DNA from: Novipirellula aureliae
Lineage (GTDB): Bacteria > Planctomycetota > Planctomycetia > Pirellulales > Pirellulaceae
DNA: 64,000 nucleotides
Assembly (NCBI RefSeq): GCF_007860185.1
Contig: NZ_SJPY01000007.1
Coordinates: forward strand, 496,001 to 560,000
Direction of reading: 5' to 3'
Below are positions 11,414-23,394 of this stretch, in pieces. The translations under genes were made by a program, and so were the position numbers. The notes below the pieces were generated by a model, which worked only from the letters and a program-made list of their open reading frames with translations, did not search any database and was not told where the DNA came from. Positions within the stretch are counted from its first letter, which is position 1. The number at the start of each line of letters is the position of its first letter.

Positions 11414-13012
11414 CTACGGTTGCTTTTGTGAAAAGTACAACGCTCCGGTCGGACAGGCTGTGATGCATTTTTCGGCAACGCTTCCGAGTGCCTCTTCCAT
11501 CGTTGCGTGAAATGGCACCCCAATCCGTACGTCAAATCCACGACCAACAAAACTCAACCCCAACGCATCTTCCGACTCGTTAGCGATTTGAATACACAGC
11601 TCACAATTAATACATTTGCCTGGTTCGTAGATAACCGAGCCGCTGCGATTGACCTTCACATAAGCTCGCCGCTCGCTTTGATATCGCGTCGGGTCGGCTC
11701 CGTATTTTCCCGCGTAAGTCTCGAGCGAGCAATTGCCGTGAGCAATACACCCGCACTCTAGACATCGTTGCGATTGATCAGCGGCTACCGAACCTTCAAA
11801 AATCATCGGAAGATTCTTGGAACTCGAAATGGAATCGCCATTCTTCGCAGCCTCACCGAGCCGTCCGATCGGTTTCCCATTCGACAGAAACTCAGCCATC
11901 TCCTCGGTTGGGATCTTGCCAACTCGCGACGAGAACGGACGAACAACGGGAGTAATCGTTTGCCCTCGAACAAACTCGTCGATTGCGGCCGCAGCTTCTT
12001 TACCATCCGCAACGCTGCGAACCACCAAGCCCTTACCACGGATCGCGTTGCCGGCCGCAAACACTCGTTCGGTTCCCGTTTCAAAAGTCCCTGCGTTGAT
12101 CTCGATTCCTCGGCGGCTGATCTTCAACCCCCAATCGCCAGCAAGCTCTTTCGCTTCGCCGCCGATACAGATCAAAATAGCATCGAAGTCATTCTGCAAG
12201 TCACTCAGTGTTACATCAGTGCCAAGCGAGACTCCTGCGGCGAACTCGACTCCCATACGCAAAATGACGTCAATCTCACCCTGGAGGACTTCAGCGGGCA
12301 AGTCCTTCGGGAAATCGGTTCGAAGCCGGCCACCCGCTCGATCGGCGGCGTCGATCAGTATGACGTTGTGCCCTGAAACGCGTAAATGAAACGCAGCCGC
12401 CAACCCGGTTGGCCCCGCACCGACGACCACAATCTGTTTTCCGGTGTCTTCTTTACAATTCGGGACATAGGGAGAGTCCGAAGCCAAATCTTGATCGGCA
12501 ACCGAGCGTTTCAAATCGCAAACTTCAACGGGTCCATCAGCGGACGAGCGCCTGCAACCTTTCTCGCACGGCTTTGGACATACTCGCCCGAGGACAGCGG
12601 GCAGGGCAATGTCTTCCTTAATCGTCGCAATCGCCGATGTAAAATCTTCGTCACCGATGTCCCGCAGCATTTTGGGAATGTCCATGTGGGCCGGGCACGC
12701 GAAATAGCACGGTGCCAAACAATCACCAACATGGTCACTAAGCAATAATTCCAAAGCTGTTCGCCGCAGCGCATGGACCTCATCCGTTTCGCTTTCCACT
12801 CGCATGCCGTCCACCGCAGGCATCCCACACGACGGAAGAACGCGACCGCTATCGACCAGCTTGACCAAGCACACTTGGCACGATGTCGATGCTTTGTATC
12901 CCTTCAAGTAGCAAAGTGTCGGGACATCGATGCCCAGTTTGCGAGCGGCATCGAGAATCGTTTCGCCATCCGCGACTTCCACTTCGACATTGTCAATGGT
13001 TATTTTGGGCAT
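11414..13012 (-). CDS. NuoG-like ferredoxin / GltD-like FAD oxidoreductase / 4Fe-4S chimera
   Basis: 532 aa, cytoplasmic. Domains in order: an N-terminal [2Fe-2S] ferredoxin (residues about 1-80, Cys pattern C-x10-C-x2-C ending in PSCGMP) as in NuoG and HydA; a GltD-type N-terminal iron-sulfur segment (CYFACPAHMDIP, then CPKPCEKGCRR); an FAD-binding Rossmann domain (VVVGAGPTGLAAA at about 195) with a second dinucleotide domain ending in RVFAAGNAIRGKG; and a C-terminal NuoG-like [4Fe-4S] region (CINCELCIQ, then CITACPTGA). It combines the NAD(P)H-linked flavin module of glutamate synthase small subunit/NfnB with NuoG-type electron wiring. It starts 12 bp after the NuoEF gene and is the last gene of the operon. 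No hydrogenase H-cluster or molybdopterin domain is present. Confidence 0.85.
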   Translation of the reverse strand: MPKITIDNVEVEVADGETILDAARKLGIDVPTLCYLKGYKASTSCQVCLVKLVDSGRVLPSCGMPAVDGMRVESETDEVHALRRTALELLLSDHVGDCLAPCYFACPAHMDIPKMLRDIGDEDFTSAIATIKEDIALPAVLGRVCPKPCEKGCRRSSADGPVEVCDLKRSVADQDLASDSPYVPNCKEDTGKQIVVVGAGPTGLAAAFHLRVSGHNVILIDAADRAGGRLRTDFPKDLPAEVLQGEIDVILRMGVEFAAGVSLGTDVTLSDLQNDFDAILICIGGEAKELAGDWGLKISRRGIEINAGTFETGTERVFAAGNAIRGKGLVVRSVADGKEAAAAIDEFVRGQTITPVVRPFSSRVGKIPTEEMAEFLSNGKPIGRLGEAAKNGDSISSSKNLPMIFEGSVAADQSQRCLECGCIAHGNCSLETYAGKYGADPTRYQSERRAYVKVNRSGSVIYEPGKCINCELCIQIANESEDALGLSFVGRGFDVRIGVPFHATMEEALGSVAEKCITACPTGALYFSQKQP

Positions 13013-13024
13013 CGTATCTCAAAC

Positions 13025-15388
13025 TCATTCAACGTAGACGGCGTTCTCGGGACAAACTTGGAAACAGGTGTCGCAGCGGGTACACAAATCGGAGTTGATC
13101 GTGTGGATTTTATAGGGCGTGATCGGAATCGCATCGACGGGACATTCTTGAGCACAGAGCGTACACCCCGTGCATGCTTGATTGATTTTGTACTGGATCA
13201 GCGTCGTGCATCGTCCTGCTGGGCAACGGCCATCGAGATGAGCTTCAAACTCGTTGCGGAAAAAACGGAGCATCGATAACACCGGATTCGGTGCGGTTTT
13301 ACCGAGACCGCAAAGACTTCCCGCAGACACATCTAGCGACAAGCGTTCGAGTGTTTCCAAGTCTCCCCTCTTTCCTTTGCCTTCACAGATACGATCCAAA
13401 ATGTCGAGCATTCGCCGTGTTCCCACTCGACAAAACGTACATTTTCCGCACGATTGATCTTGTGTGAAACGGAGGAAATAGCGGGCGATATCGACCATGC
13501 AATCCTCTTCATCGAGCACGACCAGACCTCCGCTCCCCATGATCGCGCCGACTTCGGCCAGCGATTCATAGTCGATTGATGTATCGGCCAACTCGGCCGG
13601 TACGCATCCGCCCGAGGGGCCACCGACTTGGACGGCTTTTAGTTTCTTTCCGTTCGCAACACCGCCGCCCACTTCGTCGATCACTTGACGGATCGTGATT
13701 CCCATTGGAACTTCGATCAGACCACCGCGAGCGATTTTGCCTGCCAAAGCAAAGACTTTCGTACCTTTGCTCTTCTCCGTCCCAAGGGCTGCGAACGCTT
13801 CCCAGCCGTTGCGGAAGATCCAGGGGACCAGAGCATACGTTTCGACATTGTTGATTAACGTCGGCTGTTTCCAAAGCCCCAGTTCGGCAGGATAGGGAGG
13901 ACGCAAATGTGGCATCCCTCGTTCTCCCTGCATCGAAGCCAACAACGCCGTTTCTTCGCCGCAGACAAACGCACCGGCGCCCTCCATGATCCCCAGCTTC
14001 ATCGAGAAATCACTTCCCAGAATGTGATCGCCAAGAATCCCGTCCGCTTCACAAATTTTGATCGCTTCACGAAGACGTTTGACGGCCAATGGATACTCCG
14101 CTCGAACGTAGAAGTAACCTTCACGCGCCCCGGTTGCCAAGGCGGCAATCATCATTCCCTCAATGACCCGATAGGGAAACGATTCGAGAATCATGCGATC
14201 CATGAACGCTCCCGGATCGCCCTCGTCACCGTTACAGATAATGTACTTCTTTGCCTGTTCGTCGTTTGACAGGTCGACGTCATGAACCTTTTGCCACTTG
14301 ATGCCTGATGGGAAGCCCGCCCCACCGCGACCGCGAAGACCACTCTTTTTCACCTCATCAATGATTTGTTGAGGATCGTTCATTTCGATGCATTTTTTGA
14401 GTGCAGCAAAGCCGTTGTGGCGTTTGTACTCCTCCAAATCCATTGGATCGATTTGTCCACAGTCCTCCGTTGCCAAATGCTTTTGCGGACCTAAAAATGC
14501 GCACACGCTACCTTCGCGTGGATTGATCGCTTTTTGAATTGTCGGCTCATCGTCCTCATCGACGATAAATCGATCGAGCCATTTTTCAGCCGTATACGAT
14601 AGTCGCTTGGCCCATCCACGAGGCTTAAAATGCTTCATCACCAACGATTCCGCATCCTCTGCTTGCACCTTTGCATAGAGTTGTGTGGTCCCGTTTTTGG
14701 GCACGATTTCCAATAGGGGTGTTTGGTGGCACATGCCAACGCATCCGACCCGCTTTACGTCCGCGCAAGCTCCCGACTGCGCCAACACTCGCTCCACCGC
14801 ATCGCGAACCTTGTCACTACCTTGGGCGACACAGCACGAGCCCATCCCGATTCGAATTTCGCCGAGCGATTCGCCGTTCCGCGGGCTTCGAGCCGGAGAC
14901 GGCGATGCAACACGATTGAGTTGCTGTTTAAAATCTCCTAGCATCTCGGGGACTTTGCGTGGCGATAGACCGCCATAGGTCAGATCATCCATTTGGACCA
15001 CGGGTGCGAGCGTACAGCAACCCAAGCAGGCGACGGATTGAATGGTAAACTGGCCATCTTTATCCGTGTCTTCCGCTTGGGACAGTTTAAGCTCGCTGCG
15101 AATCGAATCGATTACCAATGGAGCGCCTTTGACATGGCACGCCGTGCCCAAGCAGACATGAATCAAATGCTTGCCGACCGGTGTATGTCGAAATTGGCTG
15201 TAGAAAGTCGAAACGCCTTCGATCGATGCGGGAGTGATTTCGGTTTGTGAGCAAACATGCCGAAGCGCGGACTCCGGCAAGTAGCGATAGTGCGTCTGAA
15301 TTTGCTGCAGAATCGGGATCACTGCTTCCGGTCCTCGCCCGATCCTCGCAATCGCGTCGTCAACAAAGGCTAGGTCGATATTCGTCAT
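13025..15388 (-). CDS. NuoE-NuoF fusion (NADH-binding flavoprotein with extra ferredoxin domain)
   Basis: 787 aa, cytoplasmic. Residues about 1-160 are NuoE-like, a thioredoxin-fold [2Fe-2S] domain with CLGTACH and CLGCC. Residues about 175-265 are a second thioredoxin-fold [2Fe-2S] domain (GSCCVAQG, then CVGMCHQ), as in HydB/HndC. Residues about 280-700 are NuoF: NADH/FMN loops LRGRGGAGFPSG and CNGDEGDPGAFMDR, the GAGAFVCGEETALL block, SLBB segment, and the N3 cluster motif SCGKCTFCR. The C-terminus has two [4Fe-4S] motifs (CTGCTLCAQECP, CTRCDTCFQVCP). This is the architecture of the flavin subunit of electron-bifurcating or NAD(P)-reducing hydrogenases, but no hydrogenase subunit is nearby. 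It is followed 12 bp later by the NuoG/GltD-like gene, its probable partner. Confidence 0.9.
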   Translation of the reverse strand: MTNIDLAFVDDAIARIGRGPEAVIPILQQIQTHYRYLPESALRHVCSQTEITPASIEGVSTFYSQFRHTPVGKHLIHVCLGTACHVKGAPLVIDSIRSELKLSQAEDTDKDGQFTIQSVACLGCCTLAPVVQMDDLTYGGLSPRKVPEMLGDFKQQLNRVASPSPARSPRNGESLGEIRIGMGSCCVAQGSDKVRDAVERVLAQSGACADVKRVGCVGMCHQTPLLEIVPKNGTTQLYAKVQAEDAESLVMKHFKPRGWAKRLSYTAEKWLDRFIVDEDDEPTIQKAINPREGSVCAFLGPQKHLATEDCGQIDPMDLEEYKRHNGFAALKKCIEMNDPQQIIDEVKKSGLRGRGGAGFPSGIKWQKVHDVDLSNDEQAKKYIICNGDEGDPGAFMDRMILESFPYRVIEGMMIAALATGAREGYFYVRAEYPLAVKRLREAIKICEADGILGDHILGSDFSMKLGIMEGAGAFVCGEETALLASMQGERGMPHLRPPYPAELGLWKQPTLINNVETYALVPWIFRNGWEAFAALGTEKSKGTKVFALAGKIARGGLIEVPMGITIRQVIDEVGGGVANGKKLKAVQVGGPSGGCVPAELADTSIDYESLAEVGAIMGSGGLVVLDEEDCMVDIARYFLRFTQDQSCGKCTFCRVGTRRMLDILDRICEGKGKRGDLETLERLSLDVSAGSLCGLGKTAPNPVLSMLRFFRNEFEAHLDGRCPAGRCTTLIQYKINQACTGCTLCAQECPVDAIPITPYKIHTINSDLCTRCDTCFQVCPENAVYVE

Positions 15389-15480: not shown

Positions 15481-17292
15481 CTACTTCCCGATACATATCA
15501 ACTTTGATTTCGTCCGGAAATACATCCGTCCGTCCTTCACCGCTGGGCTCGTCACACACTCGTCACCCAAATTGCTTTCGGCAATCGTCGTGCATCCTTC
15601 CATCGTTGTGTCCAAAACATAAACCTTGCCATCCGTGTCGATTAAATGCAAATGATTGTCGATCATCGTTGGCGATGACGAGAACGAAGCATCGATTTCA
15701 TGCTCCCAAATCGGGTCCTCGGCTCCCTGTAAATCATATGCGCAAAGCAGCCCGTCCGAGGTCAACAAGAAGACCATCTTCTCAGTCGCCAATGGACTGC
15801 ACAAAGCCGGGGCTCCATAGTAGTTTTCCCACAGCAGATGTGTCTCGGTGACGTCCCCTTCCCCATCCGCTTTGATCGCGGTCACTCCCGGCATCTCGTT
15901 CGCCACCACAACGATGCCATCGACAGAGACGGGCGATGGTCCGACGTCGCCATCCAAGCACTCCGCTCGCCAAATCTCGCTCCCATCTCGCGGCGAATAG
16001 GCGACGACAGAAGGCGGACCGCAGACGATCAATTGAGGTTCACCGGCGACGTCTACGATAATTGGAGTCGCCCAAGAATTCGGGACCTCTTCGCGATTTG
16101 CCTCCCAAACCGTTTCACCCGATTGAACATCCAAAGCCAAGAGCTTCGATAGAGCATCCCCTTCATGCCCCTGGTCAAATTGTACAATCAGCAAGTTTTC
16201 AAACGTTGTCAAGGATGACGCGTGTCCGTAATTGTTTATGGGTATGCCTAAACTCCGAGACCAAGTCAGCTTGCCCTCAAAATCAAACGCTCCGATGTCA
16301 CCGTTTGCAAAAATGGCAAACACACTTCGTCCGTCGGTCGCCATCGTCGGAGCGGCGTAACCGGTATCATCCATCACCTCGGGGACTTCCGCCGTGCTTT
16401 CGGGAGTGGATGGAACTTCTTGGCTCCATAGCCGTTCACCTGTTTCAGTCGCGAAACAGATCACTTCCCGTTTCTCTTCGGTCGCGCCTGATAGAAAAAT
16501 CCGGTTTCCCCAAATGATTGGCGAATTGTTGCCGGGTAGCGGAACATCGGATTGCCAAACCACTCCATCACCCGACTCGGCATCAAACTCAATCCGTACC
16601 GATTGATCCGAAACGATCCCCAGCCCATGCGGCCCACGAAACCGCGGCCAGTTCTCTCGCCGTTCTGCTTCACTCGGCAGCGATGGTTGGTTCTCCGTTT
16701 TGGCTTCATCTAACTCTGCTGCTGCCTCTGCTGCAGCGGTTGCCGGTTGGGCTACCGATTCCGCCTGTCTCTCTGCCGATACCAAGTGGGGACTAACCAA
16801 ATTGATTGACGCAAATCGATTCTCCATCGCTGCAAAAAAACCGAAAGCGACAACGACGGTTAGCGCCGCTAGACCAGCGACAGCGTAGCGACCCGTTCGG
16901 CTATCCACTTCATCGGCTGCCTCTCGATGTTCTTGCGGTGTCGATCGTGGATCCGGTAAACGACGACGTAGTACAGCAGCCCATTTCCCGAGTCCGATGG
17001 TTGCGGATGAGCTTAGCAGCAATAGCCAAGCGCCCCAATAGGTAAAACTTCGTTGGTCGAAATAGACTTCTCGAAGTTCCGCATCAAGCTCACGAAACGA
17101 GGCTTGCAACGCTTCGTTATTAGGATCGTTCCTTAACTCGTCTCGCATTTCCGTGTAGATCGCACCACTTAGCGGATCCTCTTCGGCCCGGCGCGCGTAA
17201 TCATTGATCAATAGCAGTGCAACGATGACGGCGAACACGCCTGTGATGATGGATGTGCGGAAAGCTATTTTGTACCGGTCGTTAGGAGTCAT
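15481..17292 (-). CDS. Membrane-anchored PQQ-like beta-propeller protein
   Basis: About 603 aa from the ATG at 17292, which overlaps the preceding stop (ATGA). Three membrane segments come first: ITGVFAVIVALLLIND, WGAWLLLLSSSATIGLG, and VAGLAALTVVVAFGFFAA. After a linker, the rest is a PQQ-like (YVTN/WD40-type) propeller: repeated blades of the form VICFATETGERLWSQE, LLALDVQSGETVWEAN, GSEIWRAECLDGDVGPSPV. No PQQ-dehydrogenase catalytic signature or heme motif is visible, so a binding, scaffold or sensory role is more likely than catalysis. The propeller should face the periplasm. It is coupled to the NapH/NosR-like gene. Confidence 0.85.
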   Translation of the reverse strand: MTPNDRYKIAFRTSIITGVFAVIVALLLINDYARRAEEDPLSGAIYTEMRDELRNDPNNEALQASFRELDAELREVYFDQRSFTYWGAWLLLLSSSATIGLGKWAAVLRRRLPDPRSTPQEHREAADEVDSRTGRYAVAGLAALTVVVAFGFFAAMENRFASINLVSPHLVSAERQAESVAQPATAAAEAAAELDEAKTENQPSLPSEAERRENWPRFRGPHGLGIVSDQSVRIEFDAESGDGVVWQSDVPLPGNNSPIIWGNRIFLSGATEEKREVICFATETGERLWSQEVPSTPESTAEVPEVMDDTGYAAPTMATDGRSVFAIFANGDIGAFDFEGKLTWSRSLGIPINNYGHASSLTTFENLLIVQFDQGHEGDALSKLLALDVQSGETVWEANREEVPNSWATPIIVDVAGEPQLIVCGPPSVVAYSPRDGSEIWRAECLDGDVGPSPVSVDGIVVVANEMPGVTAIKADGEGDVTETHLLWENYYGAPALCSPLATEKMVFLLTSDGLLCAYDLQGAEDPIWEHEIDASFSSSPTMIDNHLHLIDTDGKVYVLDTTMEGCTTIAESNLGDECVTSPAVKDGRMYFRTKSKLICIGK

Positions 17293-18629
17293 CGAGGATC
17301 TCCCGTTGTTTCGATGGAAACCAATTGCGAAACGTCGCCGACTAAACCTTGGCGAACATGCTCGCCCGGACAATACCAATAGCATCGCGCACAGGATACA
17401 CATCGTGCCCGGTCCGGTTCATAATCGACTCGTCGACGGCGAATCGACAGCGTCACGAACTTGACGCCGACCACCAAGCCGACCCATCCCCCCAGAGCCA
17501 TGCCGAGCCAACCAAAGAGTTCACGCTGACCGATAGCGCGCTCGATCAAGGCCGAAGTGGGTTGCCCCGTATTCCGAAACGCTTCGCTGGCGTCCGTCAT
17601 CCCTTCGACTTCGCCTGCATCTTCTTGAATGATCCGTTCCGCCAAACGAACATCCGCGTCCAACTTTGAAAGAGGCGTTTTGAGCAACAAACCAACCAGA
17701 ACACCACAAATGATTAGTACGGGCACTGATAAAAGCGATTTGGCCAATCGACCGCGAGCCTTTACACGTTCTGATTTATGAATCGGTCGAGTCGGCGTCG
17801 CGATCGCACCGTAGGGGCAGCTGTTTTCACAAAGGTGGCATTGGATACACGTCTCCGGTGCAATACGTCCGTGCCACTTCGAACCCTTCGACAATACACC
17901 CAAAATCGCACCGTAGGGACACAGATAGCGGCAATAGGGACGTCCGATGAATACCCCCAACAACAAGATCGACCCGCCGAAGATCAACATGTTGACGTTA
18001 CCGCTCATGCGGAACATCGCGACGAATGGATCGTAGCGGCAGATAATGAACGCCGTGCCGGTCGCAGCGTAAAGAATCGCCAAACCGAGATAGATATAAG
18101 GGACCAACCCGAGCGAATGATCGAGCCAAGAGGGAACGCGAACCGGACGAACGGCGACCACTTCTTGAATTGCCCCGAGTGGACAAACCGCTGCACAAAA
18201 CGTGCGTCCGAAAAACAGTGTATAGACGAGCGGCAAAACAAAGATCGCGATCACGGTCCAGGGAATCGCGTAGCTGGAGTCGAACATGCCGAGCGTTACA
18301 TTTTGCACTGCCCCGATCGCGCACACACAACCGCCCCGTGCGAAACCAAACCATAGCAGCGACGCCACGGCCAATGCGAACAATCCACGGCGTGATCGGC
18401 TGACAATCGCCAAATAGGACGCCAGCGACAAGGCGATGACAAGCAGCCCTACGTTCAGCCACTCCCATATCGGACTGTCAGGATTCGATGGAAGCGTAAT
18501 CGGAACGTCGTGGTTCGTAAACTCGGGAACGGGAATCAATTCCGAACCGACCGCTACCGAACTCGACAAGCAGAGAGCCCCCAATACCAGGAAGATACGA
18601 ATTTTGTAGACCGAAGATGACTGGTTCAT
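17289..18629 (-). CDS. NapH/NosR-like membrane iron-sulfur protein
   Basis: 446 aa. A signal-like N-terminal segment is followed by about five or six membrane helices (WLNVGLLVIALSLASYLAIV, VIAIFVLPLVYTLF, YIYLGLAILYAATG, MLIFGGSILLLGVFIG, SVPVLIICGVLVGLLL, MALGGWVGLVVGV). Two NosR-type CX3CP motifs (CAAVCPLGA, CRYLCPYGA) are present, then a ferredoxin motif CIQCHLCENSCP and a C-terminal CVSCARCYWYCP. NosR/NapH/RdxA-type proteins pass electrons across the membrane; the FMN-binding N-terminal domain of NosR is absent. Both ends overlap neighbours by four bases (ATGA), so ferredoxin, this protein and the propeller are translated as one unit. Confidence 0.88.
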   Translation of the reverse strand: MNQSSSVYKIRIFLVLGALCLSSSVAVGSELIPVPEFTNHDVPITLPSNPDSPIWEWLNVGLLVIALSLASYLAIVSRSRRGLFALAVASLLWFGFARGGCVCAIGAVQNVTLGMFDSSYAIPWTVIAIFVLPLVYTLFFGRTFCAAVCPLGAIQEVVAVRPVRVPSWLDHSLGLVPYIYLGLAILYAATGTAFIICRYDPFVAMFRMSGNVNMLIFGGSILLLGVFIGRPYCRYLCPYGAILGVLSKGSKWHGRIAPETCIQCHLCENSCPYGAIATPTRPIHKSERVKARGRLAKSLLSVPVLIICGVLVGLLLKTPLSKLDADVRLAERIIQEDAGEVEGMTDASEAFRNTGQPTSALIERAIGQRELFGWLGMALGGWVGLVVGVKFVTLSIRRRRVDYEPDRARCVSCARCYWYCPGEHVRQGLVGDVSQLVSIETTGDPR

Positions 18630-19396
18630 TGGAAAGAAGGCTCCTGCGAATCACTTCCCTTTTGTTGGCTCGCTCTCCACACTCGTTGTCGTTCGGCACG
18701 GGCAAGTAACTCGTTGGCTTCCGCTTCCTTGACCTGATCAATCTCTGTGCCGGTTTGTTCAGCATCACGCTCAATGACTCGTTTCGTCTGCGAACCGCGC
18801 GCTTGGTAAACGGCCGCCGCACGTTCCTTCAATATTTCCGATTGGCTTTGAGGGATTCGGTAGAAGGCTTCGGTTGGACATGCCGTTGCGATAGCACATT
18901 CATTACAGTTCAAGCACTTTTGATGATCGATCTGCAAGTACAACGAACCGTTCATCAACGCGCAGCCCTCGACACACTTGGCGCAACCGATACAGATTGG
19001 TTCGTCGATCGTGTATTCGTAAAATCGCTGCCCCGATTTCTCTTCGACAAACTTGCGAACGATTGCGCCCGTTGGGCAGGCTTGGTTCTCAGCGGCCGTA
19101 TCGAGCGATTTGTAGTTCATCTCAAAATAGCCGGTACAGACGTCACAGAACCCACACATATCGAAACAGTTGTAGCACTTAACGGCCGAGACGTCCAAAA
19201 CACAATGCGTCGCACAATTACCACATGCGGTACACCTATCGGGATCAAGCTGCCATACCATCGGCTCGCCTTCGCTACGGCGACCAACCAAAAAACCGCC
19301 CGCACTGGCCATCGCAACGACGCCACCGGTGCGCAAGGCATCGGCCATGAACCGGCGACGATCCTGTTTGCCCGAATCAAAGCTATTGGTATCCAT
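18626..19396 (-). CDS. Tat-exported polyferredoxin (NapG-like)
   Basis: 256 aa. The N-terminus has a twin-arginine motif (DRRRFMADAL) before a hydrophobic stretch (GGVVAMASAGGFLVG), so it is probably exported folded through Tat. Cysteine motifs give three to four [4Fe-4S] sites: CTACGNCATHC, CYNCFDMCGFCDVC with CPTGA, CIGCAKCVEGC, and CLNCNECAIATACP. The C-terminal 70 residues are a charged, helical, coiled-coil-like tail (EQTGTEIDQVKEAEANELLA). NapG and NapH form a quinol-oxidising pair in nitrate respiration; here there is no nitrate reductase gene. It starts two bases after the small four-cysteine gene stops and overlaps the NapH-like start. Confidence 0.87.
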   Translation of the reverse strand: MDTNSFDSGKQDRRRFMADALRTGGVVAMASAGGFLVGRRSEGEPMVWQLDPDRCTACGNCATHCVLDVSAVKCYNCFDMCGFCDVCTGYFEMNYKSLDTAAENQACPTGAIVRKFVEEKSGQRFYEYTIDEPICIGCAKCVEGCALMNGSLYLQIDHQKCLNCNECAIATACPTEAFYRIPQSQSEILKERAAAVYQARGSQTKRVIERDAEQTGTEIDQVKEAEANELLARAERQRVWRASQQKGSDSQEPSFQ

Positions 19397-19398
19397 GT

Positions 19399-19644
19399 TT
19401 ACCGAAGCCCCTTCTTGACGTTTTGTTGCAATTTTGCTCGCCGACTACTCAACGCGGCGGGTTGTTCACAACGGTCCCACAATCCACACGTCTGGCAGGG
19501 AATTCGCCGCGTACAACCGCTTGCATCGCGAGATCGAAATGCTAAGAACGCGGACCCAATGCTGAGGATGACTAGCAAGGCATTCCGATACACGGACACG
19601 AACCAATCGCGGCGTGAACCTTTGAAGGGAGTTTGCTCATTCAT
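19399..19644 (-). CDS. Small membrane protein with four-cysteine C-x5-C-x2-C-x5-C motif
   Basis: 81 aa, start ATG at 19644 overlapping the end of the NHL gene by eight bases and ending two bases before the ferredoxin start, so it sits exactly within the operon. Residues about 18-33 form one membrane helix (NALLVILSIGSAFLAF). It is followed by CTRRIPCQTCGLWDRC, four cysteines in 16 residues that could hold an iron-sulfur cluster or a zinc ion, then a basic tail. The tight spacing on both sides is the main argument that it is real. I do not recognise the family. Confidence 0.7.
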   Translation of the reverse strand: MNEQTPFKGSRRDWFVSVYRNALLVILSIGSAFLAFRSRDASGCTRRIPCQTCGLWDRCEQPAALSSRRAKLQQNVKKGLR

Positions 19645-20761
19645 GCGAATTCTCGATAAAAACACGGATGGTTTGTCGATTCGGGTCGAGTACCAAAATG
19701 CGTCCATCGCGGTCGACCGCAACATCGAGTACTCCATTTCGCTGCGAGTCACGAATTTCGATCTTGGCGGTCGACTCGTTCGTAAAGGCCGCTGGCGGAG
19801 CCACGATCGATTCAAACGTCCCATTCGAATCATAGATTTTGACTCGAGGAATTCCTTTTTCTGCCGTCACAAAGCGTCCGTCTGGTAGCATGCTCAGTGC
19901 AACGGGATTACAGCACCCAAAGAATCCTTCGATGGCGGAAGAGGTCTCGCCCCAAGCTCCGAGCGCGTCGCCTTCGAGGGTGAACGCTTCGATCGAACGA
20001 GCACCAGGGTTTACAACCCGTAGCACCCCATCGTCGGCAGCCAGGACATCGAAGTGGGCGCTCGGTACGACAAAGCTTCGCAATCCTTGCTCTACCTTCT
20101 TTTCTTCATCAATTTTCAACAGCAATTCACCCTCACTGTCGAACTTCAGCACCGCTCGTTGACCTGCATCGGCAACAAACACGTTGTCTTCAAAAACCGC
20201 CAACGATGTAATCATACTGTCTTCGTTAAGGCCTTCATTGAAAACAGCTCGTCGTTCGCCACCGGCATCATAGCAATGCACCGCTGCGGCAAAGCCCACA
20301 TAGATAAGATTTGCGTCCAGGGCAAACGCGATGCAGGTCGGCGGCGAATCCGTCGTGATCTGTTGGGTCTTTCTGCCGCTTTCGTCAAACCGTTGAATTT
20401 CAACATCGCCAACGACTGCGAATCCACCGTCTGGTATAGCGGCAACGGCTCGCAGAGTTTCCATTTCGACCGGGTAGGCAGCGATTTCTTTGTAAGCCAC
20501 TTGTGCTGCATCGACCGATGTCAGTTCACTGGTGTCGAGCGAGAAACGCGAGGGCAGGCGATTGGCACGCTCGCCCCACGAATCGACTTGAATGACGGCG
20601 AACAGGGCAACGCCCGCAATGAAAACGACCCCTGCCCAAAAGATCGCTGATTTCGAACCTGTCATGACTTGGATCGGTGTCACGTCAGCCGGAGCATCGC
20701 TGTTAGACGAAACGGGTGTCGGACGATCGTGCCGCGGATCAGACATTGGAGAATTTGTCAT
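19637..20761 (-). CDS. Membrane-anchored NHL-repeat beta-propeller
   Basis: 374 aa (or 369 from the next ATG at 20746). A proline-rich N-terminus precedes one membrane helix (FWAGVVFIAGVALFAVIQV); the rest is a six-bladed NHL-type propeller with blade motifs such as GGFAVVGDVEIQRFDESGR, NVFVADAGQRAVLKFDSEG, DGRFVTAEKGIPRVKIYDSNG and DGRILVLDPNRQTIRVFIE. It is predicted to face the periplasm. No cofactor motif is visible. It lies 10 bp after the PQQ-like gene and overlaps the four-cysteine gene. Confidence 0.83.
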   Translation of the reverse strand: MTNSPMSDPRHDRPTPVSSNSDAPADVTPIQVMTGSKSAIFWAGVVFIAGVALFAVIQVDSWGERANRLPSRFSLDTSELTSVDAAQVAYKEIAAYPVEMETLRAVAAIPDGGFAVVGDVEIQRFDESGRKTQQITTDSPPTCIAFALDANLIYVGFAAAVHCYDAGGERRAVFNEGLNEDSMITSLAVFEDNVFVADAGQRAVLKFDSEGELLLKIDEEKKVEQGLRSFVVPSAHFDVLAADDGVLRVVNPGARSIEAFTLEGDALGAWGETSSAIEGFFGCCNPVALSMLPDGRFVTAEKGIPRVKIYDSNGTFESIVAPPAAFTNESTAKIEIRDSQRNGVLDVAVDRDGRILVLDPNRQTIRVFIENSHE

Positions 20762-22265: not shown

Positions 22266-23222
22266 TCAACTCGGCGAACCAGAGCGAGTCGCAACCTTTT
22301 CGACGAATACGACCGCAAGGGCGGATGCGACAATTAGTCCTGCCAGCAGCCATAAATTGCCGGTCCAATCCGCAGGCGATACGAATTCCATCACACGAAA
22401 CTTTGCTTCAAGTGCCGCCGTCTCTTCCGTCGCTTGCTGAAGCGGCCATAATGTCGAAACACTGCCAAGCATCAACCCGATTAACGCTGCCATCGTCGAG
22501 CCGCGATGGTGATCGAGTAGCCAATGAAGCGCCCGAGAAAACGCCAGCAAGCCAAATAGACATCCACATGCAAACACAGCGAGCTGCGATAGGCCTTCGC
22601 TAGAAAATTGCAGATGAACGGCGTCTCGGATCAAGCCGGTAATCACGTGATAGACCCCGAACAGAAGTAGCACAAAAGCGCCACTGATCCCTGGCAGAAT
22701 CATTGCGCATATTGCCACCGAGCCACTGAGAAACAGATAGGGCAAACTCGTTCCTCCATCACCCGCAGGGACAAAGGATATGGCAACGGCAGCGGCGACG
22801 CCTGCCAAGCAAGCAACGAGCTGGGGAGCAGCCCACCTGGCCACGTAGTTTTTCACAATCCAAATGCTGCCCAAAATCAAACCAAAGAACACGGCAAAGG
22901 TTTCGGGTTGTTTGTGGTCGAGTAGCCAGTGCATTAACCCCGCCAACGATAACAACCCGGTGGCGATACCAAGACCCAAGGCGGCTAGAAACCGGAGATC
23001 GACATACTCGATCGATTCGCGAATCCGCCCGTTTGACAGGAGCTTCAATAGACGCGAATCGACTCGGCTGATTGACGTGATCAAACGTCGGTAATGGCCA
23101 AGGATCAAAGCGACCGTCCCGCCGCTGACGCCCGGCACCGTATCGGCGGCTCCCATACAAAATCCACGCAGCACGTTCAAAAATGCCGCCGCAATCGAGT
23201 CGCGTCTCAAAAAACGTTTCAT
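22266..23222 (-). CDS. DUF368 family membrane protein (undecaprenyl phosphate translocase family)
   Basis: About 318 aa from ATG 23222. The family-defining block FCMGAADTVPGVSGGTVALI is at about residues 18-37, with a second, inverted-topology copy of the PGISGAFVLLLFG type in the second half. Eight or more hydrophobic segments. Members of DUF368 have been shown in other bacteria to help recycle undecaprenyl phosphate across the membrane (established for the PopT group); function here is inferred from the family. It lies directly upstream of the redox operon on the same strand. There is no obvious functional link. Confidence 0.88.
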   Translation of the reverse strand: MKRFLRRDSIAAAFLNVLRGFCMGAADTVPGVSGGTVALILGHYRRLITSISRVDSRLLKLLSNGRIRESIEYVDLRFLAALGLGIATGLLSLAGLMHWLLDHKQPETFAVFFGLILGSIWIVKNYVARWAAPQLVACLAGVAAAVAISFVPAGDGGTSLPYLFLSGSVAICAMILPGISGAFVLLLFGVYHVITGLIRDAVHLQFSSEGLSQLAVFACGCLFGLLAFSRALHWLLDHHRGSTMAALIGLMLGSVSTLWPLQQATEETAALEAKFRVMEFVSPADWTGNLWLLAGLIVASALAVVFVEKVATRSGSPS

Positions 23223-23394
23223 AGAAATAAGATGACCCCAAACCAAGACGGAAATAAAAAAAATGACACCTCTCGCTAGTCGTCACCAAGACTAGCAAAA
23301 ATATCGTACCCGTACTTAATCAAATGGTATCGATACCCTCTACCCTCTACCCGGACGCCCAAGACACTCCCTGTTCCCGTTCTCCTGGGTAAGG

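Follow-up and report, generated by a model that had tools for sequence, protein, structure and literature searches.

A small four-cysteine membrane protein tied to a ferredoxin in a planctomycete redox operon: a candidate iron–sulfur relay subunit

In the 64,000-nucleotide stretch of Novipirellula aureliae DNA analyzed here (the window), a reading frame of 81 codons lies between the genes for a beta-propeller and a ferredoxin. The locus raises two questions: whether so short a frame is a gene at all and, if it is, what its product does beside the ferredoxin. The frame, for which we use the working name cys4, is the third of eight consecutive minus-strand genes (pqq1, the NHL propeller, cys4, the ferredoxin, a NapH/NosR-like protein, pqq2, a NuoE–NuoF fusion, and a NuoG–GltD protein; Table 1). 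The ferredoxin encoded in the window carries a twin arginine in its N-terminus. As listed, pqq2 begins within the NapH-like gene, with an overlap of 115 bp; the true start is probably the in-frame ATG at 17292, which overlaps the napH stop. Directly upstream of pqq1 on the minus strand lies a 326-aa frame (22266–23246), which may encode a DUF368 protein and for which no match was reported at the other loci compared.

Table 1. Positions of the operon genes and of the cys4 features within the window
Feature	Position	Strand	Basis
pqq1, PQQ/BamB-type beta-propeller with hydrophobic N-terminal segment	20772..22238	-	ORF list, family profiles
NHL-type beta-propeller with hydrophobic N-terminal segment	19637..20761	-	ORF list, family profiles
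cys4, 81-aa four-cysteine gene, ATG to stop	19399..19644	-	ORF list, sequence, homologues
Codons of twin arginine R11-R12 before membrane helix (SRRDWF)	19609..19614	-	sequence; A3 alignment
Hydrophobic core of membrane helix, about residues 22-37	19534..19581	-	sequence; AlphaFold2 helix 11-39
Codons C44 to C59, C-x5-C-x2-C-x5-C, putative [4Fe-4S] site	19468..19515	-	sequence; spacing statistics
fdx, ferredoxin with Tat-like N-terminus, NapG-like layout, 256 aa, 18 Cys	18626..19396	-	ORF list, family profiles
NapH/NosR-like membrane iron-sulfur protein, 446 aa	17289..18629	-	ORF list, Pfam/NCBIfam
pqq2, PQQ/BamB-type beta-propeller	15481..17403 as listed	-	ORF list, family profiles
Fused NuoE + NuoF-like protein (BfuC-BfuB), NAD/FMN module	13025..15388	-	profiles, solved-structure match
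BfuA/StnC-like NuoG-GltD protein without NAD(P)H Rossmann part	11414..13012	-	profiles, solved-structure match

On the minus strand of the window, the cys4 frame opens with an ATG at 19644 and closes with a stop codon at 19399–19401; it shares 8 bp with the NHL-propeller gene upstream (19637–20761), and a gap of 2 bp separates it from the start of the ferredoxin gene at 19396. Its product consists of an N-terminal tail, the motif SRRDWF, a hydrophobic stretch, and four cysteines (C44, C50, C53, and C59) spaced C-x5-C-x2-C-x5-C. AlphaFold2 (mean pLDDT 78 overall) predicted a single membrane-type helix spanning residues 11–39, with means of 93, 97, and 84 for residues 11–20, 21–30, and 31–40, respectively, followed by a short helix between C53 and C59 (54–58) and another at 62–79. 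Confidence was low to moderate around the cysteines (blocks of 57 and 63), a region for which the model is in any case blind to metals. The sequence and the model thus bear out the initial annotation, which had described an 81-aa four-cysteine membrane protein with these gene overlaps, one helix, and this cysteine pattern.

The window's cys4 protein matched no model of Pfam, NCBIfam, or PHROGs; a search of its own genome returned only the self-match, and a search of a plasmid collection returned no match. The profile built from alignment A3 (50 rows including the window's protein) gave weak matches besides cys4 in the same genome, among them the ferredoxin N-terminus at E 0.016. A chance ORF would be consistent with the shortness of the frame and with the lack of a family model match for the window's protein; its conservation, its co-occurrence with the ferredoxin, its natural fusions to the ferredoxin (all below), and the dN/dS values of close pairs argue against chance so strongly that we give this reading practically no weight. 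Among 18 close pairs, dN/dS was 0.19–0.65, and hence below 1, in the 17 that could be computed, the remaining pair being saturated in dS. The initial annotation had named the cysteines and the frame in relatives as the place where its proposal could fail: there the frame was intact, and the four cysteines were found in most relatives, from several phyla by record title, with three cysteines in two distant copies. We conclude that cys4 is a real gene and not a chance ORF.

We examined the distribution of cys4 relative to that of the ferredoxin, which was present in 32 of 199 genomes of the family and 37 of 392 genomes of the phylum (the window's own genome being counted in both). A first set of 69 loci comprised the window and 68 other ferredoxin matches with their flanks, and the operon order, as judged by eye, was conserved in most of those long enough to show it. 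cys4 was found in 57 of the 69 loci, including copies with odd C1–C2 spacing at L099 and L145 and a C-x3-C copy at L151. None was found at nine (L125, L127, L129, L135, L138, L141, L146, L155, and L156), that is, at nine of the 66 assessable loci; the other three (L101, L128, and L137) begin too near the ferredoxin for cys4 to be judged. The genome of L101 (G065) does carry cys4, on a different contig.

The association also held at the level of whole genomes. All 32 ferredoxin-positive family genomes matched the A3 profile at E 1.0e-9 or better, a result that is partly circular in that some A3 rows come from the searched genomes (L162, for example, is a contig of G127). The 167 ferredoxin-negative family genomes gave no match below E 3.8e-4 and none that was convincing; with 27 candidates scored per genome, weaker relatives could be missed. 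The matches from three of these genomes (G030, G188, and G209) had E values of 3.8e-4 to 9.4e-4; two of them fall inside frames 401 and 503 codons long, the third contains a stop codon, and all three look like noise. The search covered 199 genomes, and the handles listed for it agree with those of the ferredoxin search.

By record title, relatives of the ferredoxin extend outside the family. At least 516 stretches in one genome collection encode one, and we examined the best 80 loci, whose record titles name Planctomycetota, Verrucomicrobiota, Bacteroidota, Lentisphaerota, Kiritimatiellota, and several candidate phyla, for example KSB1, Omnitrophota, and Poribacteria; these loci are mostly metagenome bins, whose taxonomic assignment may be wrong. 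Of the 80 loci, 57 yielded cys4 in a motif search, and a looser scan added altered copies at L165, L211, and L237 as well as the fusions L203 and L224. With the window included, a four-cysteine cys4 was present in 63 of 81 loci (twice as a fusion) and a three-cysteine copy in two; 12 had none and four (L168, L187, L191, and L235) were cut off. The first set and the named loci share organisms, and their counts are not additive. Among the 57 motif-found copies, 14 lie apart from the ferredoxin yet within the cluster: 13 of these sit directly upstream of the NHL gene and are preceded in eight cases by a pqq1 match, and the one at L167 has the NHL gene on one side and the ferredoxin on the other. 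The loci without cys4 (12 of 77 assessable) are L170, L180, L181, L185, L192, L198, L204, L208, L215, L219, L220, and L236; when the genomes of all of these except L180 were searched with A3, only ferredoxin N-termini or weak matches were obtained. Since no copy was found at these 12 loci, cys4 is not indispensable everywhere.

Sequence conservation in cys4 is concentrated in the arginines and cysteines. All rows of A3 share R11, R12, R20, C44, C50, C53, and C59; because row selection required the twin arginine and four cysteines, this invariance is partly built in, except that of R20. The spacing of the cysteines was counted in 100 non-redundant copies out of 112 from both sets, selected by a pattern that demanded the twin arginine, two residues between C2 and C3, and four to six between C3 and C4; the count excludes both fusions as well as the odd copies L099/L165, L145, L211, L237, L213, and L233. 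The C3–C4 spacing was five in 99 of the 100 copies. The C1–C2 spacing was more flexible, being five in 64 copies, six in 22, four in five, seven and eight in four each, and three in one; beyond the counted copies, it was two in L099/L165 and 11 in L145. An arginine nine residues past the first arginine of the pair was found in 91 of the 100 copies; in 69, Leu-Pro occupies positions two and three after the last cysteine. Among the odd copies, L213 and L233 (L242, L243) have a degenerate cys4 with three cysteines beside the ferredoxin, L237 has C-x3-C-x2-C-x7-C with no twin arginine at the usual place, and L211 has RK instead of RR. Together with the missing copies, the three-cysteine copies suggest that any cluster in cys4 would be an aid rather than a necessity.

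Two named loci join cys4 and the ferredoxin in a single polypeptide. In L203 and L224, the unit of twin arginine, helix, and four cysteines is fused in frame directly before the WQIDP start of the ferredoxin. In a ferredoxin tree of 81 sequences, each trimmed to start at WQIDP, L203 paired with L192, where no cys4 was found, and L224 paired with L205, which has a separate cys4 (supports 99/98 and 95/93, respectively); the supported branches require that the fused state changed at least twice. The fusions therefore point to a position of the cys4 cysteines on the ferredoxin's side of the membrane and next to the ferredoxin. The initial annotation had suggested that cys4 is either an electron relay or an anchor for the ferredoxin. 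A physical partnership with the ferredoxin gains support from the two fusions and the co-occurrence, and a relay is plausible; anchoring as the sole role is unlikely, because separate ferredoxins have a twin-arginine hydrophobic N-terminus of their own, also at loci that yielded no cys4. A role in anchoring the ferredoxin to the membrane or in its Tat co-targeting, with cysteines of secondary importance, would suit L203 and L224, the only cases in which the cys4 helix is the sole N-terminal anchor of the ferredoxin; an anchor would, however, have no need of conserved cysteines, and we consider this reading improbable. An AlphaFold2 model of the L224 fusion had a mean pLDDT of 69 and about 50 over the cysteine insert, and no inter-cluster distance was read from it. 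An alignment of fusions, ferredoxins, and cys4 proteins (A5) was set aside because the cys4 cysteines fell on ferredoxin cysteines.

The twin arginine of the window's cys4 (R11 R12), placed ahead of the hydrophobic helix, suggests that the protein is inserted by the Tat pathway, which would leave its N-terminus in the cytoplasm and its cysteines outside. The Tat signal model TIGR01409 weakly matched seven of 50 cys4 proteins with an E limit of 1 (best 0.006), and TIGR02811 (formate dehydrogenase region TAT target) matched eight of 50 at the same limit (best 0.0013); the window's protein matched neither. A Rieske Tat-signal model gave a weak match in two of 26 members (best E 0.0036). Most E. 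coli Tat substrates are described as binding redox cofactors (PMC3712460), and Rieske proteins are described as carrying non-cleaved Tat anchors (PMC5449189). Rieske-type proteins with such an anchor resemble cys4 in their N-terminal twin-arginine membrane segment, but cys4 has another motif, is much smaller, and has no conserved histidine ligands, A3 containing no conserved histidine. Rieske and heme ideas for cys4 were rejected on this ground and because none of the window's three propellers contains the CxxCH heme motif.

A parallel for the cysteines themselves is the [4Fe-4S] loop of endonuclease III and MutY (PF10576), in which four cysteines also lie in one short stretch, given in PMC11138216 as C-x6-C-x2-C-x5-C; this motif shows that so short a stretch can hold a [4Fe-4S] cluster. 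The same spacing occurs exactly in 22 of the 100 cys4 copies, and C-x5-C-x2-C-x5-C, the spacing in the window, occurs in 64. Unlike these enzymes, cys4 has no DNA-glycosylase domain and does have a membrane helix and a twin arginine. The PF10576 model was run on the window's own genome, 16 further genomes, and 26 cys4 members; it matched one of the 26 members (E 0.42) and gave no match at the place of cys4 in the own genome and 14 carrier genomes at E 10, with at most 150 candidates scored per genome. Kinship with endonuclease III is thus unsupported by sequence or fold tests, the likeness being one of spacing alone. Foldseek and VIA-align comparisons of the AlphaFold2 model of the window's cys4 with PDB folds gave no match, and the eight weak matches from a solved-structure profile search with alignment A2 (best E 0.12) were to unrelated proteins.

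The neighboring genes specify the setting in which cys4 may work. A multi-cluster ferredoxin with a Tat-like N-terminus beside a Fer4_5 membrane protein recalls the NapG/NapH quinol dehydrogenase, in which, as described in PMC5449189, the NapH clusters lie on one face of the membrane and those of NapG on the other. The window's proteins nevertheless scored far under the NapG/NapH cut-offs of NCBIfam (18.4 against 178.85 bits for TIGR00397, MauM/NapG, and 48.6 against 213.05 bits for TIGR02163, NapH/MauN). Nap operons are not known to carry a cys4-like gene, propellers, or an NADH module.

The other end of the operon encodes relatives of the Bfu and Stn electron-bifurcating enzymes. The NuoE–NuoF protein matched 9n5u_B, 9bov_B, and StnB (8oh5_B) over nearly their full length (residues 177–785 against 6–593 of 602 in 9n5u_B, E 6.6e-210), and it has two 2Fe-2S_thioredx stretches and C-terminal Fer4 matches; its layout is that of a BfuB-type core with a NuoE-type BfuC part, comprising an N-terminal thioredoxin-like and a C-terminal ferredoxin-like domain. 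The NuoG–GltD protein matched 9bov_A, StnC (8oh5_C), and 9n5u_A; 8OH5 is the structure of StnABC, whose StnC subunit combines GltD and NuoG domains (PMC10482914). The alignment of the window's NuoG–GltD protein to 9bov_A passes from position 289 straight to 425 and thereby omits the part that carries the second Rossmann motif, which binds NAD(P)H; the motif GGG[NS][TS]A was found in none of the 36 homologues with both frame ends inside the locus, 25 of which are 520–557 aa long. The operon's version thereby differs from the solved GltD relatives of the Stn/Bfu enzymes, which keep this stretch. The third redox partner of the module is therefore probably the membrane side rather than NADPH. The module would also be coupled to NapG/H-like proteins, unlike the known Stn (StnABC) and Bfu enzymes. 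The membrane forms described in PMC9304861 are Mbh-Bfu and Nuo-Bfu, with Nuo-Bfu clade 39 including Planctomycetes and Nitrospirae; that paper leaves 17 BfuB clades without an assigned function, and a term search of its main text found no mention of NapH, PQQ, or propeller.

Taken with the position of cys4 in this operon, an electron relay is a plausible role for it and, as we propose from the sequence comparisons, the best explanation. Specifically, with a probability of roughly 0.6, cys4 is a Tat-inserted single-span subunit of a redox complex that carries one compact [4Fe-4S] cluster and acts as a stepping stone between the NapH-like protein and the ferredoxin, with a Bfu/Stn-type NADH module as a further part. 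The four cysteines would hold the cluster near the outer surface of the membrane, where cys4 would adjoin the Tat-exported ferredoxin and offer electrons an extra step between it and the NapH-like subunit; the Bfu/Stn-type module would process NADH on the cytoplasmic side of the same complex.

The main competitor of this relay is a structural or assembly subunit whose cysteines bind zinc or form disulfides and which clamps the ferredoxin and the propellers onto the membrane subunit without handling electrons. Four-cysteine sites with CxxC are also typical of zinc, and the cys4 sequence alone fits iron–sulfur and zinc alike; the missing copies (12/77), the three-cysteine variants, and the flexible C1–C2 spacing would likewise suit such a subunit. 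Against it stand the near-constant C3–C4 spacing, the iron–sulfur proteins encoded by the neighboring genes, and the fusions, in which cys4 sits directly before a cluster-ligating segment of the ferredoxin; the twin arginine, moreover, suggests export of a folded, cofactor-loaded protein. We regard the structural role as unlikely, though clearly less so than the anchor discussed above. A maturation factor that delivers or protects the ferredoxin clusters before export is less probable still: Tat proofreading factors exist, and the gene is adjacent, small, and rich in cysteine, but the protein has a membrane helix and a twin arginine of its own, which point to the same destination side as that of the ferredoxin, and a permanent fusion would be odd for a chaperone.

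The relay subunit can be set in a wider frame, which we advance tentatively and would expect to be wrong somewhat more often than right. cys4 might be an exported, stand-alone counterpart of the minimal [4Fe-4S] loop of the endonuclease III type and, at the same time, the signature subunit of a new membrane-bound Bfu class, in which cytoplasmic NADH (and ferredoxin) chemistry would be linked through the NapH-like protein to a polyferredoxin and beta-propellers outside; by record titles, this class would extend over Planctomycetota, Verrucomicrobiota, Bacteroidota, Lentisphaerota, and candidate phyla. Among the top listings of keyword searches in an open-access library, none described the operon. 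If the proposal is right, cys4 is the small marker gene of a transmembrane redox complex that is widespread and for which these searches showed no description, and a module of the flavin-based electron-bifurcation type is joined to an electron chain outside the membrane. It would also bear on the role of the functionally unassigned Bfu clades of PMC9304861, and in cys4 it would reveal a membrane-bound cluster carrier of very small size. The iron–sulfur claim can be tested directly on the natural fusions.

The N-termini of cys4 and the ferredoxin also resemble each other. The twin arginine of cys4 and the arginine that follows it have counterparts in the ferredoxin N-terminus, and the cys4 profile matches ferredoxin N-termini; judging by this resemblance, the two Tat-like anchors may share an origin.
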